Shown: piece after piece, positions 20,881 to 29,310 of the stretch | Layout: every line of letters begins with the position of its first letter | Numbering within the stretch: the first letter of the stretch is position 1 | From: Acidobacteriota bacterium | Lineage (GTDB): Bacteria; Acidobacteriota; Vicinamibacteria; Vicinamibacterales; SCN-69-37 | Reading direction: 5' to 3' | DNA length: 64,000 nucleotides | Assembly (NCBI GenBank): GCA_020853395.1 | Contig: JADYYY010000002.1 | Location: 270,609 to 334,608, forward strand | Program-made: the position numbers and the translations under genes | Notes under the pieces: generated by a model | Seen by the model: the letters and a program-made list of their open reading frames with translations, nothing else | The model's database searches: none | Told to the model about the DNA's origin: nothing

Positions 20881-21217
20881 CCGTTCGCGTCGGCGCGGCC
20901 GCGCCGACTTCGGCAAACGCTTCGAGACCCGCAACGCGCGACGTCGGTCGAGGTCGCGATGAGCGAGAAGAAGCGCCGCGAGACGTGGCCAAGCATGGGC
21001 TACGAGCAGGCTCGTCGGGATCAGGTCGCCCCACGTGCCCGTGAGCTCTGATCGGACGATGCGAAAAGCCGTGCAGACAAAAGGCTGACCACCGAAGACC
21101 TTCCAGGCGGGCTGGCGATCAAAATCACACGGCTGAGCGGCAGAGATCTCAAAATCGTGCATGGCATGCGAATCGCTATCATGCTGCCGGACTCCCCAGG
21201 GGTTCGACGGAGGATAC

Positions 21218-22108
21218 ATGCGCCGGTTCTTGTCGATTGGTCTCGCCGCCGCGGCGGTTTTCGTGGCCGGAGCTCGTCCAGCGCGCGCGCTGCCGGTTGG
21301 ATTGGAGCTGGCCCTCGTCATCGATGCGTCGACGAGTATCAGCTCGACTGATTTCGCGCTACAGAAACAAGCCTACGTCGATGCCTTCAGCCCGGGTGGC
21401 GTCGTGTACAACTTCGTCAACAGCGGCCTCGGCACGCTCGCGGCGTCGGCGTTCATTTTCGGCGGCAACACGGGAGGCGGGCTGGCGCTCGCGACGCAGG
21501 TCGCGAGCTGGACGGGCATCAGCAACGGGGCAGAATCGGCGGCCTTCGCCGCCGCGCTCAGCAGTGGCCTGACCCAGCCGGGCTCGGTGGCGTTCGGCAA
21601 CACGAACATCGGCGCGGCGGTGAACCTCGCGACCGGTAGCTTCGCCACGAACGGTTTCGAAGGTCTCCGGCTGACGATCGACATCTCGAGCGACGGCCTG
21701 CAGAACCTGCCACTCGATGGAACCGGCCCCGGCGGGGCCTGCCCATCCCCGGGTGGGCCCTCCGGCGATTCCCCGGCTTCGGATCCCGATTGTGTCGCGA
21801 TCGTTCAGAACGCTCGCAACGCCGCGGCCGCCGCCGGCATCACCATCAACGCGCTGGCCATCCCCGACGTCGGAGCCGGATCGGACAACCTGACGGGCGC
21901 GTTCCTGTCGTCGTACTACACCGCGAACCTGATTACACCTGGTGGATTCGTGGTCATCGCCGAAACCCCGGAGCAGTTCGCGACGACGCTGAACTCGAAG
22001 CTGCAGGCGGAGCTGAGTGCCGTTCCCGAGCCCGGCACGCTGCTGCTGTTCGGCTCCGGAGCCGCGATGATGTTCCGCCGGCTCCGCAACCGCCGTCGCG
22101 ACAGCTAG
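21218..22108 (+). CDS. Secreted VWA-type (DUF1194-like) protein with PEP-CTERM anchor
   Basis: 296 aa. A signal peptide (MRRFLSIGLAAAAVFVAGARPARA) is followed by 'LELALVIDASTSISSTDFAL', a VWA fold whose MIDAS is DASTS, and 'LTIDISSDGLQN' in place of the usual DG motif, as in DUF1194 proteins. The C-terminus is a full PEP-CTERM sorting signal: 'VPEPGTLLLFGSGAAMMF' followed by a basic tail RRLRNRRRDS. Such signals direct processing by exosortase (EpsH/XrtA), whose gene is not in the window. The start at 21218 has CGGAGG 6 nt upstream. It is monocistronic and followed by a strong terminator. Confidence 0.87.
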   Translation: MRRFLSIGLAAAAVFVAGARPARALPVGLELALVIDASTSISSTDFALQKQAYVDAFSPGGVVYNFVNSGLGTLAASAFIFGGNTGGGLALATQVASWTGISNGAESAAFAAALSSGLTQPGSVAFGNTNIGAAVNLATGSFATNGFEGLRLTIDISSDGLQNLPLDGTGPGGACPSPGGPSGDSPASDPDCVAIVQNARNAAAAAGITINALAIPDVGAGSDNLTGAFLSSYYTANLITPGGFVVIAETPEQFATTLNSKLQAELSAVPEPGTLLLFGSGAAMMFRRLRNRRRDS

Positions 22109-23901: not shown

Positions 23902-26900
23902 ATGACTTCGAACGCATTCCCGATCCGTCTTCATCATCTGCCGACGTCGCGTCGGCCGCGCTCGCGCGCCACTCGGCTCGCCCGAATCGCTCTCGCCGCT
24001 CTCGGCATGCTGGCCGCGGCGCGGCCCGCGCTCGCGCAGGTCGAGGTCTGGACGCAGCACAACGACAACGGCCGCACCGGCGCGAACCTCCAGGAGACCC
24101 AGCTCACCGTTTCGACGGTCAACACCGGCCAGTTCGGCCGGCTGTTCAGCTACTCGGTCGACGCCGACATCTACACGCAGCCGCTCGTCCTGCGCAACGT
24201 CACGATTCCCGGCAGGGGCACGCACAGCGTCGTGTTCGTGGCGACGACCAACAACTCGGTGTACGCGTTCGACGCCGACGACAACCTGGGCCCGAACTCG
24301 CAGCCGCTCTGGCACGTGAACTTCAACAACCCGGCCGCCGGCGTCGTGCCCGTGCCCGCCGCCGACGCCCAGCCGCGGCCCAACATCCGCAGCCCCGGCC
24401 CCATCGGCATCATGGGCACGCCCGTGATCGATCGCGCGACCGGGACCCTGTACGTGGTCGCCCGAACGAAGGAAACCACCGGAGGCTCGACGGCGTATCG
24501 CCAACGCCTCCACGCGCTCGACGTCTCGACAGGCGCCGAGAAGTTCGGCGGTCCGACGCTGATCCAGGCGACCGTGTCGGGCAGCGGCTACGACCAGACG
24601 AACGGCACGATCACGTTCAATCCGCTGCGGCAGAACCAGCGCATGGCCCTCGCGCTCGGCAACGGCCTCGTGTACATCGGCTGGGCGTCGCACGGCGACG
24701 CCGACCCGTATCACGGCTGGCTCATGGCGTACGACGCGGCGACGCTGCAGCAGGTCGCGGCCTTCTGCGTCACGCCGAACGGCTCACAGGGCGGGATCTG
24801 GCAGTCGGGCCAGGCGCCGGCCATCAGCGATGCCGGCGAGGTGTACGTCACGACGGGCAACGGCACGGTGGCGGTCACCGGTGCAGGGCGCGACTACAGC
24901 GAGGCGGTGCTCAAGCTGAGCCCGGCCCTGCAGGTGCTCGACTACTTCATCCCGGCGAACTACGCGGCGCTCAACGCCGACGATCTCGACTTCGGATCCA
25001 CCGGTCCCCTTCTGATCCCCAACACGAGCTACGTTCTGGGCGCGGGCAAGGCCGGGCAGTTCTTTCTGCTCAACACGGGCGCGCTCGGCCGGTTGACCAG
25101 CAACGACGCAGGCGCCGTCCAGCGATTCCAGGTGACGGGCCCCGGTCATCACGGAGGCTCCGGACACATCCACGGTAGCCCGGTGCATTGGCAGGACGCC
25201 ACCGGCGGCAATCTCTACGTGTGGGGCGAAGACGACCGCCTCAAGGCCTACCGGCTGAATGGCTCGACACTGACGACCACGCCGACGAGCCAGAGCCTCG
25301 TTCAGGCGCCGCCGGGCATGCCGGGAGGGTTCCTCAGCTTGTCGGCGAGCGGCTCGGCAGCCGGCTCGGGCATCGTCTGGGCGTCGTTGCCCCTTGCCGC
25401 CGACGCCGAGCTCGCCGTCGTGTCGGGCGTACTTCGCGCGTTCGACGCGAGCGACCTCACGCGGGAAATCTGGAACAGCGAACAGAACGCGGCGCGCGAT
25501 CGCCTGGGTAACTTCGCCAAGACCGTGCCGCCGACGGTGGCGAACGGGCGCGTGTACATGGCGTCGTTCTCCAATCGCCTGCACGTGTTCGGTCTGCTCG
25601 ACTCCTACACCCCGCCGACCGGCGGCGAAATCCTCGGCCAGGGCGAGCCGTCCGCCGCGCCCGCAGATCTCACCCAGGCCGGAGCCTGGGATTGGGTGCA
25701 GTGGCCGGAAGGCAATCGCAAGGCCACCGGCGGCGCACAGATCAGCCCGTTCACGCCCGTCGGCGGCGGCACCGTCCAGTCGTACATCAACGATCCTCGT
25801 ACCGTCTCGTGGTCGGACGGGGCACCCGCGCAGGTCGGCAGCAACACGAGCGGCGTGTTCATCTCGTCGGTGGGCAATGGCTTCATGGTGACGGCACCGG
25901 CCGATGCCGTCGAGCGCACGCTGAAGCTCTACGTCGGTGGCTGGCGATCGCGAGGCCAGCTCACGGCCGAGCTCGCCGACAACTCGGGCGCGCCCTACAC
26001 CGATGCGAGCTTCTCGTCGGACACCGGGCCCTACGATGCCGTGTACACGCTCAGGTACAAGGCGGGCACGGCCAGTCAGATCGTGGTGAGCTGGACGCAG
26101 CAGTCGGGCTCGGGCAACGTGACGCTCCAGGCGGTCGCGCTGGCCGGCCCGCTGCCCGCAGTGCCGGGCACGCCGGGCGGCGTCACGGCAACCGACGGCA
26201 CGTCCGGCGCGGCCGTGGACGTCACGTGGAACCCGGTCGCCGCCGCATCGAGCTACACGGTCTATCGCTCGCCGACGGCGGGCGTCCAGGGCACAGCGCT
26301 CGGCACGGTGTCGGCGACCTCGTTCTCCGACACGACGGCGGCGCCGAGCACGACCTACTACTACAGCGTCACGGCCACGAACGTCGCGGGCACCAGCCAG
26401 CCGTCCACCCAGGACGCCGGCTATCGAGCGACGGGGCCCGCCGCGAGCGCGCAGCTCACCGGAAGCGTGCTCGCCGTGACGTCGCCCGTCGATCTCGCGG
26501 CCGTCGGCACCAGGGATTGGGCACGTTGGCCGGGGTCGGACCGCAAGGCAGGCGGGACGGGCGAGATCGGCACGTTCGCGATCCTGGGTGCAGGCGGCGT
26601 CTCGAACTACGCGAACGATCCTCGCACCATCCAATGGTCGGGCGGCACACCCACGGCCGCGGGCTCGAGTCAGGCCGGCGTGTTCAAGACGGGCGCGGGC
26701 ACCGGCTTCAGGCTCTCGGTCCCGGCTGACGAGGTCGTGCGGACGATGTACGTCTATGTCGGCGGATGGCGATCGACGGGCCAGCTCACGGCACGGCTGA
26801 GCGACGGATCGGCGCCCGACTTCGTGAGCGCCCCGGTTGGGAACGTGAGCGGCCAGTACGATGCCGCATATGCCCTGACCTATAGCGCCGCGCCGGGCCA

Positions 26901-28407
26901 GCAGATCGTCATCTCGTGGCTCCAAGCGTCCGGGCCAGGAAACGTCACGCTCCAAGCGGCCGCGGTCGCCGGCGCCGACGCTCCGAATCCCCCACAGAGT
27001 CCATCGGGCGTGAGCGCCAGCGACGGGACGGCCACGACGGTGGCCATCACCTGGGCAGCCGTGAGTGGCGCGGCAAGCTACACGGTGTACCGGTCGGCAG
27101 TGGCCGGCGTGCAAGGTGACGCCATCGGCACGTCCACGGCCACCGCGCTCGTCGACACGTCCGCCGTGGCTGGCACGACCTATTTCTACGGCGTCACCGC
27201 GTCTGGTCCGGGAGGCACGAGCGCGCTGTCGGGGCAGGATGCCGGGTCCGCGGCCGCACCACCGCCTCCCCCGCCGCCACCTCCACCTCCACCTCCGCCT
27301 CCGCCACCTCCGCCGCCGCCAGGCACTGGCTCGCTCACGGGCGCGCTGCTGTCGTCCGGCACGCTGGTGAACCTGACGAGCGTGGGCACGAGCGATTGGG
27401 CCCGCTGGCCAGGCTTCGACCACAAGAACACGGGCCAGAACCAGATCAGCAACTACACGGTCGTCGGTTCGGGGGCCGTGAACACGTACACGAACGACCC
27501 GCGGACGATCAGTTGGAGTGATGGCGCGACACCGGCCGGAACGAGTCGAAGCGGCCTGTACAAGTCGGGCGCAGGCACGGGGTTCCGCATCACCGCCCCC
27601 GCCCGCAGCACCACGCGCACGCTCATCGTCTACGTCGGCGGCTGGAACTCGACGGGGCAGCTCCAGGCGCACCTGAGCGACGGCTCGGCGGCCGACTACA
27701 CGAGCGGCCCGGTCGGTACGTCCAGCGGGCAGTACAACGCAACTTTCTCCCTCACCTACTCCGCAGCGGAGGGTCAGGTGCTGGAAGTGTCGTGGGTGCA
27801 GGCGTCGGGCGGTGGGAACGTGACGCTGCAGGCCGCGTCGTTGGCCGACAGCCAGCCAGCGGGCGTCACGGGCGAGCTGTCCGTCAGCGCCATCCCCGTG
27901 AGCCTCACGATCGACCTGTCGGGCACCGGCACGATCGACTGGGCTCGCTGGCCGGGCTATGACCACAAAGCCGACGGCGGCGGCTCGATCTCCACGTTCC
28001 AGGTCGTCGGCAGCGGGCCGGTGACCGCCTACACGAACGACGCGCGGACCCTGACATGGTCGGGCGGCACGCCGACGACCGCCGGCTCCAACCGGAGCGG
28101 CGTCTACAAGACGGGCGCGGGCACGGGATTCCGGATCACGGCGCCGGCCGACGAAACGAGCCGGACGCTGACGCTCTACGTGGGCGGATGGAACTCCACC
28201 GGCCAGCTCAGCGTGCAGCTCTCGGACAACTCCGCGCCGATCTACACGAGCCCGGCTGTCGGCGGTGCCGGCCAGTACGACGCTGCCTATGTCGTGACGT
28301 ACCGGTCTGGACCAGGCCAGCAGTTGGTCCTCACGTGGACCCAGGTGTCCGGAGGCGGCAACGTGACCCTCCAAGGCGCCGCGCTGGCCACCGCCACGGC
28401 ACCCTGA
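23902..28407 (+). CDS. Giant secreted protein: beta-propeller, four 'DWxxWPG' modules, two FnIII domains
   Basis: 1501 aa. The ATG at 23902 gives an Arg-rich n-region, a hydrophobic core and 'ARPALAQVEVW', a Sec signal; a TTG five codons upstream is less likely. Residues about 50-570 form a PQQ/quinoprotein-like beta-propeller ('YSVDADIYTQPLVLRNV', 'VVFVATTNNSVYAFDADD', 'GTLYVVARTKETTGG'). Then follow four modules of about 165 residues (25641-26154, 26452-26970, 27331-27846, 27871-28398), each with 'DWxxWPGxxxK', 'NDPRTxxWSxG', 'LYVGGW-S-GQL' and 'GNVTLQA'. FnIII domains lie between modules 1-2 and after 2, and a polyproline hinge precedes 3. It is probably cell-surface or extracellular; carbohydrate or protein binding is inferred only. 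Codon use matches the neighbours. Confidence 0.82.
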   Translation: MTSNAFPIRLHHLPTSRRPRSRATRLARIALAALGMLAAARPALAQVEVWTQHNDNGRTGANLQETQLTVSTVNTGQFGRLFSYSVDADIYTQPLVLRNVTIPGRGTHSVVFVATTNNSVYAFDADDNLGPNSQPLWHVNFNNPAAGVVPVPAADAQPRPNIRSPGPIGIMGTPVIDRATGTLYVVARTKETTGGSTAYRQRLHALDVSTGAEKFGGPTLIQATVSGSGYDQTNGTITFNPLRQNQRMALALGNGLVYIGWASHGDADPYHGWLMAYDAATLQQVAAFCVTPNGSQGGIWQSGQAPAISDAGEVYVTTGNGTVAVTGAGRDYSEAVLKLSPALQVLDYFIPANYAALNADDLDFGSTGPLLIPNTSYVLGAGKAGQFFLLNTGALGRLTSNDAGAVQRFQVTGPGHHGGSGHIHGSPVHWQDATGGNLYVWGEDDRLKAYRLNGSTLTTTPTSQSLVQAPPGMPGGFLSLSASGSAAGSGIVWASLPLAADAELAVVSGVLRAFDASDLTREIWNSEQNAARDRLGNFAKTVPPTVANGRVYMASFSNRLHVFGLLDSYTPPTGGEILGQGEPSAAPADLTQAGAWDWVQWPEGNRKATGGAQISPFTPVGGGTVQSYINDPRTVSWSDGAPAQVGSNTSGVFISSVGNGFMVTAPADAVERTLKLYVGGWRSRGQLTAELADNSGAPYTDASFSSDTGPYDAVYTLRYKAGTASQIVVSWTQQSGSGNVTLQAVALAGPLPAVPGTPGGVTATDGTSGAAVDVTWNPVAAASSYTVYRSPTAGVQGTALGTVSATSFSDTTAAPSTTYYYSVTATNVAGTSQPSTQDAGYRATGPAASAQLTGSVLAVTSPVDLAAVGTRDWARWPGSDRKAGGTGEIGTFAILGAGGVSNYANDPRTIQWSGGTPTAAGSSQAGVFKTGAGTGFRLSVPADEVVRTMYVYVGGWRSTGQLTARLSDGSAPDFVSAPVGNVSGQYDAAYALTYSAAPGQQIVISWLQASGPGNVTLQAAAVAGADAPNPPQSPSGVSASDGTATTVAITWAAVSGAASYTVYRSAVAGVQGDAIGTSTATALVDTSAVAGTTYFYGVTASGPGGTSALSGQDAGSAAAPPPPPPPPPPPPPPPPPPPPPGTGSLTGALLSSGTLVNLTSVGTSDWARWPGFDHKNTGQNQISNYTVVGSGAVNTYTNDPRTISWSDGATPAGTSRSGLYKSGAGTGFRITAPARSTTRTLIVYVGGWNSTGQLQAHLSDGSAADYTSGPVGTSSGQYNATFSLTYSAAEGQVLEVSWVQASGGGNVTLQAASLADSQPAGVTGELSVSAIPVSLTIDLSGTGTIDWARWPGYDHKADGGGSISTFQVVGSGPVTAYTNDARTLTWSGGTPTTAGSNRSGVYKTGAGTGFRITAPADETSRTLTLYVGGWNSTGQLSVQLSDNSAPIYTSPAVGGAGQYDAAYVVTYRSGPGQQLVLTWTQVSGGGNVTLQGAALATATAP
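25641..28398 (+). repeat. Four diverged copies of a ~165-aa module inside the giant protein
   Basis: The copies at 25641-26154, 26452-26970, 27331-27846 and 27871-28398 share the ordered signatures DW(V/A)xWP, ND(P/A)RT(V/I/L)xW, S-GV/LYK-GxGTGF-(I/L/M), (L/V)YVGGW-S-GQL and GNVTLQA. They are diverged enough that the DNA copies are not identical, so this is an old protein-level duplication rather than an assembly artefact. Confidence 0.85.
27259..27322 (+). repeat. Low-complexity CCN tract encoding a polyproline hinge
   Basis: About 20 consecutive proline codons with varied third bases (CCA, CCG, CCT, CCC) separate FnIII domain 2 from module 3. Mixed codons argue for selection on the protein rather than recent slippage. 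It is a likely rigid spacer. Confidence 0.85.
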
Positions 28408-28509
28408 GGCCTGAGCCGCCGCGATCCCAAGAAAGTCGGGAATTTCGCCGGCGCTCTGTCGGCACCGCCCCGGTCCGGTGTAGACTCCGCGCCCGGAGGG
28501 GGACTCCAC

Positions 28510-29310
28510 ATGAAACACGTCGTGACCGCGTTCGTTCTGCTAGGGGTGTGCACGGTCGCCGCAGAGGCTCAAGACCGTTCGCACTGGGGAGCCGCTGCCG
28601 GCTTCATCCCGAAGTGGGAGACCGGCGGATCGTTGAAGGACTTCGAGAACCTCGTGATCAACGAGGACAGCCTCGGGATCTCCGGCTCCGAGTTCCGCAT
28701 CGGTATCGTCCGCGGGCGGCGTCTGTCGGGCGACTGGGGCGTCTCGTTCGTCCGCCGGGCGTTGGACAAAGGCGACACGGTCACGCAGTCGGACGGCTAC
28801 GGGTGCCAGGGCGGCTCGACGGGTTCGTCCGCGCCCTTCATCCTCGCGTGCACCGGCGACAACTCGGAGGTCACACCGGGCGATCTCCGAATCACGGGTG
28901 TCGAAGTGAACAAGTTCTTCTCGTTCGTGACGATTGCCGAACGCGTGCAGATCGGCATCAACATCGCGGGCGGCATCGGCAAGGGCGACGGCAGCTACAG
29001 CACGCGTTCCTTCCACACGACGTTCACCTGCACCTTCCCCCCGGGAAAGTTCCCGGACTACGGCCCGGACAGCGACCCGTGCACGGGTGGGGTCAAGTCG
29101 AAAGAAGTGACGACGCCGACCGGCACCGGGACCGAGCCCTTCGGGCGCATCCTGAATTACGAAAAGAATTTCATCCCGCTCGGCAAGGTCGAGGTCGGCG
29201 TCTCGGTCATCGTCGTACCCCAGCTCAAGATACGGCTCAGCGGAGGCATGGACTACCCGGGGATGAGCACGGTCGGAATCACGGGCCTGTTCTTCTTCGG
29301 ATCGGAATAG
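28510..29310 (+). CDS. Hypothetical outer-membrane beta-barrel protein
   Basis: 266 aa with a signal peptide (MKHVVTAFVLLGVCTVAAEAQ). The mature protein has alternating strands 'SEFRIGIVRGRRLSGDWGVSF' and 'FFSFVTIAERVQIGINIAGG' and ends 'YPGMSTVGITGLFFFGSE'; four Cys residues (in 'YGCQGG', 'ILACTG', 'FTCTFP' and 'DPCTGG') could form two disulfides. GGAGGGGG precedes the ATG. No family is recognised; the size and strand pattern suggest a small porin-like barrel. It follows the giant protein gene by 102 bp. Confidence 0.65.
   Translation: MKHVVTAFVLLGVCTVAAEAQDRSHWGAAAGFIPKWETGGSLKDFENLVINEDSLGISGSEFRIGIVRGRRLSGDWGVSFVRRALDKGDTVTQSDGYGCQGGSTGSSAPFILACTGDNSEVTPGDLRITGVEVNKFFSFVTIAERVQIGINIAGGIGKGDGSYSTRSFHTTFTCTFPPGKFPDYGPDSDPCTGGVKSKEVTTPTGTGTEPFGRILNYEKNFIPLGKVEVGVSVIVVPQLKIRLSGGMDYPGMSTVGITGLFFFGSE

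Follow-up and report, generated by a model that had tools for sequence, protein, structure and literature searches.

A four-copy, uncatalogued module of predicted beta-sandwich fold behind the beta-propeller of an Acidobacteriota protein, with relatives in other bacteria and on viral contigs

The propeller gene and its four modules

The window examined here, which is the whole stretch of DNA that was analysed, comprises 64,000 nucleotides from an Acidobacteriota bacterium (contig JADYYY010000002.1, positions 270,609 to 334,608) and contains a gene for a large protein that is predicted to be exported (Table 1). Its parts follow one another in the order signal peptide, propeller, module M1, FnIII domain, M2, FnIII domain, polyproline spacer, M3 and M4. 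The reading frame is backed by full-length homologues elsewhere, one in Terriglobia (L005) and one in Burkholderiales (L130). A sequence-only reading of the same DNA had placed a four-copy module of unrecognised family in this frame, and the frame is real; the coordinates given there, 23902-28407, are those of the whole open reading frame, and modules are found only from 25639 on. The export signal, recognised by inspection, consists of a basic region, a hydrophobic core (LARIALAALGMLAAA) and an ALA-Q cleavage site (...RPALA-Q). When the whole protein was compared with Pfam, fn3 was the sole match above the cut-off, and no recognised carbohydrate-active enzyme domain was found.

Table 1. Parts of the propeller gene, in window coordinates
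Feature	Residues	Position	Strand	Basis or remark
Open reading frame	1-1501	23902-28407	+	1501 aa, ATG at 23902; large protein, predicted to be exported
N-terminal export signal (putative)	1-45	23902-24036	+	inspection of sequence
Beta-propeller	46-572	24037-25617	+	about 60% identity to L005 propeller, 40% to L130 propeller
Module M1	580-750	25639-26151	+	repeat comparison; 54% identity to L005 module
FnIII domain 1	753-842	26158-26427	+	Pfam PF00041, E 2.3e-9; PDB 3mpc, E 1.2e-6
Module M2	852-1022	26455-26967	+	repeat comparison
FnIII domain 2	1028-1112	26983-27237	+	second fn3 stretch; 54% identical to FnIII domain 1
Polyproline spacer	1120-1140	27259-27321	+	sequence; about 21 residues
Module M3	1150-1318	27349-27855	+	repeat comparison
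Module M4	1328-1496	27883-28389	+	repeat comparison; first row of modelled alignment

The four copies and their order are established by sequence comparison. The modules, each of about 170 aa, share 49-60% pairwise identity and about 56 invariant columns, with alignment scores of 414-552 against 80 or less in 200 shuffles each (Z 45-64), and a genome-wide search with a profile built from them recovers all four at E-values of 1e-86 or lower and nothing else. The family signature comprises LxxxGxxDWxxW, WxDGTPT, PADTTxRTLxxYVG, LSDGSAP, GQxLxVxW and GNVTLQA, and six positions (L12, D19, W20, I36, W59 and G62 in M4 numbering) are invariant over 36 copies, those occupied by D, W and G being held unchanged across phyla and phages. 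The commonest form of the first motif in other organisms is DWAHWG...SF(N/D)HK, and the DWARWPG form of the window modules is common to L005 and, less closely, L006. The shared motifs listed in the earlier reading hold as a consensus but not as strict patterns, since M1 has DWVQWPEGNRK and VGNGF, M4 has NDART and GNVTLQG, and M2 and M3 have VYVGGW. In the same way, the alternation of modules with FnIII domains that it described applies from M1 through the polyproline spacer, but M3 and M4 stand next to each other. The FnIII domains, too, are duplicates (Z 22), so growth by units of one module plus one FnIII domain is probable for part of the array.

An antisense open frame of 1244 aa (window 24784-28518, minus strand) spans the whole module region and was not treated as a gene, because such a frame is expected in coding DNA of about 70% GC. 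Close upstream of the propeller gene lies that of a DUF1194 protein with a PEP-CTERM sorting signal (window 21161-22108, plus strand). No functional link to the propeller gene was found for this or the other chromosomal neighbours, a membrane protein and a small exported protein, and sigma-70 promoter and terminator patterns around the gene did not exceed chance.

Library searches and predicted fold

The modules form a real, uncatalogued domain family of the familiar CBM-like beta-sandwich kind, the fold being a prediction. Neither the modules alone nor a spread of their relatives matched Pfam (2025 models), NCBIfam (June 2026) or PHROGs above the cut-off, and PDB sequences gave no significant match to single sequences or to profiles of four or twelve modules. 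The family was thus correctly called unrecognised, and the four-copy profile search against protein databases, which had been proposed as a check, produced no confident match to any described family. Single modules and profiles likewise fell outside the existing CBM families represented in Pfam and the PDB sequences; the modules match neither the BACON profile (PF13004) nor PF00041, the fn3 stretches falling only between them, and literature searches returned no description of the module. Matches of modules to GH85_C, IcmF_C, TSP_Ig-like, strep_pil_rpt and Myco_19_kDa stayed below the cut-off and differed between copies, and were set aside. Matches of the whole protein to the 'major tail protein' families PHROG 4971 and 7440 were rejected as a sign of phage origin; their best stretch (aa 1012-1109) lies in the region of the second FnIII domain, off the modules.

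An AF2 model of M4, built from eight copies (window, L005, L006 and viral), is all-beta, with a mean pLDDT of 72 and a pTM of 0.73; the last 100 residues (71-168) mostly reach pLDDT 79-90, and residues 1-70 are largely poor. Its best structural match is the C-terminal region of the phage structural protein CBA120 TSP4 (5w6h; Foldseek E 2.5e-5; VIA Z 10.2 over 140 of 168 residues, 3.0 A, 9% identity), whose CBM-like domain has been proposed to bind cell-surface saccharides (PMC13082707). A porphyran CBM (8xmz, Z 9.4), CBM61 (8.9), CBM22 (8.6) and CBM16 (8.6) follow within a group of CBM matches at Z 8-9.4, with unrelated sandwiches (MAM, Fbs1, Cry and Ib toxin domains) close behind. Values of Z 8-10 are only slightly over 7-8, the typical range of the tool for unclear models, so a common beta-sandwich could score alike, and because unrelated sandwiches rank so near, the model supports the fold class and not membership in a particular superfamily. 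The beta-sandwich proposed from the sequence thus agrees with the model, which is all-beta and best matches CBM-like or galactose-binding-like domains, but it does so at moderate confidence and with residues 1-70 poorly modelled. The conserved Trp and Tyr residues may lie in the core and not at the surface.

The galactose-binding-like CBMs (CBM16, CBM22, CBM61, CBM36, CBM6/35 and the porphyran CBM) resemble the module in predicted fold, size and repetition, and their fusion to glycosidases is also found among its relatives. The module differs from them in having no detectable sequence match, a greater length (about 170 aa) and its own DW..W / W.DGTPT / Y.G / N.TLQ signature; moreover, the window protein is without a CAZyme domain, and a ligand of the module is putative. 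That the repeat is instead a divergent member of a named family, such as a CAZy CBM or a CDD domain, and appears unnamed only in the libraries searched, is unlikely: the spread of fold matches over many CBM families would suit such a reading, as would the fact that 'unnamed' here refers to Pfam, NCBIfam, PHROGs and PDB sequences, with CAZy/dbCAN, CDD and AlphaFold DB outside the comparison, while single sequences and profiles alike lack an above-cut-off match in all four libraries.

Distribution, multiplication and partners of the module

Relatives of the module are widely but sparsely spread. They were found in 6 of the 396 sampled genomes of the window's phylum (its own genome counted, and one of them marginal, at E 5.7e-4), in 12 of 119 genomes of one family within that phylum, in 4/349 genomes of the class of the Terriglobia genome (one marginal), in 2/300 genomes of the order of the Burkholderiales genome and in at least six IMG/VR viral contigs. 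A contig scan with strict four-copy patterns returned two loci only, and the canonical single sequence, used as a query, found no viral relatives. Searches by tblastn with the canonical copy and M2 against PLSDB plasmids, and with the module of the viral protein L028 against INPHARED phages, gave no match. The other 59 nearest relatives of the window genome were without the module, save for one marginal partial match, and since these close relatives do not have the protein, its lateral acquisition or repeated loss is likely. Module pairs that are identical or nearly so within one genome (L102 in G851 and L106 in G866) suggest that the module was recently duplicated or underwent gene conversion.

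The propeller belongs to an unnamed family of about 525 aa with very variable C-terminal tails (in Terriglobia, for example, L133-L162), and the propeller of the window has no match, PQQ-repeat families included, in Pfam or NCBIfam at E<1. Propeller relatives occur in 84 of 151 sampled Terriglobia-class genomes, with up to nine among the matches listed per genome. Among the 30 best propeller loci whose flanks were read, only the L005 locus runs on into the module; the others have either no tail or, as judged by eye, FnIII-, Ig-, LamG-like or ricin-type lectin tails, the ricin-type lectin of L137 being confirmed against the PDB (E 3e-23). The module therefore takes a position that is also taken by known sugar-binding domains. 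A propeller model built from 2 sequences is poor (pLDDT 48) and matches quinoprotein ADH first, and also the propellers of BamB and tetrathionate hydrolase; these matches are indicative of fold only, and the propeller may be a ligand-binding scaffold or an enzyme.

Behind their propellers, the two homologous proteins differ in the number of modules: L005 carries one, and L130 carries four, with Ig-like, Big_1-like spacers that score 33.2 bits against Big_1, under the cut-off of 34.9. In a tree of 38 modules, M2, M3 and M4 of the window form one clade (support 98/94), and the four L130 modules form their own (100/98). M1 does not join the clade of M2-M4; among modules of other organisms it has its highest identity with the single one of L005. 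The separate clades mean that the array multiplied at least twice. In the simplest history, a propeller with one module would have come first, and at least two lineages would then have multiplied the module separately, using different spacers.

Elsewhere, the module has a range of domain partners. Four proteins from a single family within the window's phylum (L093, L096, L097 and L098) have it fused to a GH-like domain, the GH30 assignment of which rests on a single C-terminal domain match above the cut-off (Glyco_hydro_30C, in L098 only). The catalytic GH-like part gave no significant match in a PDB profile search, for which reason these secreted GH30-like putative glycosidases may represent an uncharacterised glycosidase branch; the GH-like part of L045, searched alone, gave no match either. 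Arrays of M23 peptidase, BACON-like and PKD domains carry one to four modules, the BACON matches of L095 and L105 lying outside the modules and just below the Pfam cut-off; L006 joins the module to PKD, FnIII and DUF4082 domains, and other relatives have it beside Big_7 domains. In the IMG/VR collection, reading frames of G916 pair modules with a phosphoesterase, a GH5 cellulase domain and a marginal chondroitinase B match, and G917 carries the module alongside two F5/8C discoidin domains. The G916 record, of 109 kb, includes a stretch (C1:38000-52000, L116) in which adjacent long frames mix phosphoesterase, GH5, chondroitinase-B-like beta-helix and modules. It may be bacterial DNA in a viral collection or a virus with polysaccharide-degrading genes; the stretches examined in G916 and G917 resemble secreted proteins of bacteria and may be DNA of the host.

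The phage neighbours are unambiguous at three other viral loci, where the module is the N-terminal part of a protein whose gene lies amid head, portal and tail-sheath genes. The gene of L027 (4980-8090) lies between those of the major head protein and a tail completion/Neck1 protein, that of L028 (4959-6758) between those of the head-tail adaptor and the major head protein, and that of L055 (1190-2740) upstream of those of the major head protein and tail sheath protein. Short low-complexity repeats (ITEGSDTVAGVG..., GSGISVTIGAG...) take up hundreds of residues behind the module in L027 and L028, and in L055 the tail is a different one. The three are possibly head-fibre or decoration proteins. 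CBA120 TSP4 is likewise a phage structural protein, a tailspike with its CBM-like domain at the C-terminus; here the module stands at the N-terminus. In that place it could serve to dock the protein onto the virion and not to bind the host, and bacterial arrays could polymerise, as would be expected if the modules were protein-protein or self-assembly domains of surface layers and virions and not sugar binders. We regard this as quite improbable; the closest fold matches are sugar-binding modules and the enzyme partners are glycosidases, both of which speak mildly against it, and an unsystematic look at the neighbourhoods of the bacterial loci showed no gene for a common protein partner.

Possible roles

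The repeat is probably an uncatalogued, non-catalytic, galactose-binding-like or CBM-like sandwich, and the protein that carries it a secreted multivalent lectin or adhesin. Four modules hang, by way of FnIII and polyproline spacers, from a beta-propeller that is predicted to be exported, and each would weakly grip a polysaccharide or another repetitive ligand of the cell surface or matrix; four copies on extended spacers would then give avid, long-reach attachment and hold the propeller at the surface. The carbohydrate- or surface-binding idea put forward from the sequence fits the partners of the relatives (glycosidases, discoidin and phage virion genes), and proteins with the same propeller and a ricin-type lectin in the module's place fit it by analogy.

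A different division of labour, in which the modules serve mainly as structural spacers or a stalk, like tandem Ig-like sandwiches that extend or rigidify a protein, and the real function resides in the propeller, would account for their repetition among FnIII domains and polyproline, for their company of PKD, Big_7 and BACON in relatives and for the single copy behind the L005 propeller. It also has a parallel in BapP, a secreted biofilm adhesin of Pseudoalteromonas tunicata in which an N-terminal beta-propeller precedes tandem beta-sandwich repeats that have been likened to RTX adhesin extender regions (PMC12153261). The likeness drawn here is one of architecture, and BapP differs in having a five-bladed propeller of 226 aa and Ig-like, Ca2+-dependent repeats (PMC12153261). 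A spacer role is less natural, however, for single copies that adjoin GH-like domains or stand at the N-terminus of phage structural-cassette proteins, and the invariant D, W and G across phyla and phages represent more constraint than is usual for spacers, so we consider it improbable as the main function. FnIII itself supplies beta-sandwich repeats in the window protein, as separate units between the modules.

Beyond the favoured reading of a multivalent lectin or adhesin, a bolder and doubtful proposal is that the module is an exchangeable surface-recognition cassette of soil bacteria and phage virions, which bacteria would join to matrix-degrading enzymes and propeller adhesins and phages would show near their head genes, both recognising the same common environmental polysaccharide, with propeller adhesins of different phyla having independently reached four copies for avidity. 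A precedent for such a discovery is BACON, a carbohydrate-binding domain mined from metagenomes and later met in phages (PMC9853417), which shares the proteins L095 and L105 with the module and is a separate sequence family.

The domain family, which is absent from Pfam 2025 and NCBIfam 2026 and has a clear signature, is new, and it connects glycosidases and phage virion-cassette proteins with giant, uncharacterised proteins that soil bacteria secrete. The sharing of the module between phages and bacteria and its convergent multiplication are the notable parts. Two separate four-fold expansions behind homologous propellers offer a testable case of selection on avidity. If the module binds a defined glycan, it would provide a handle on the attachment to, or digestion of, polymers by poorly cultured soil bacteria, and likewise on the adhesion of environmental phages to surfaces.
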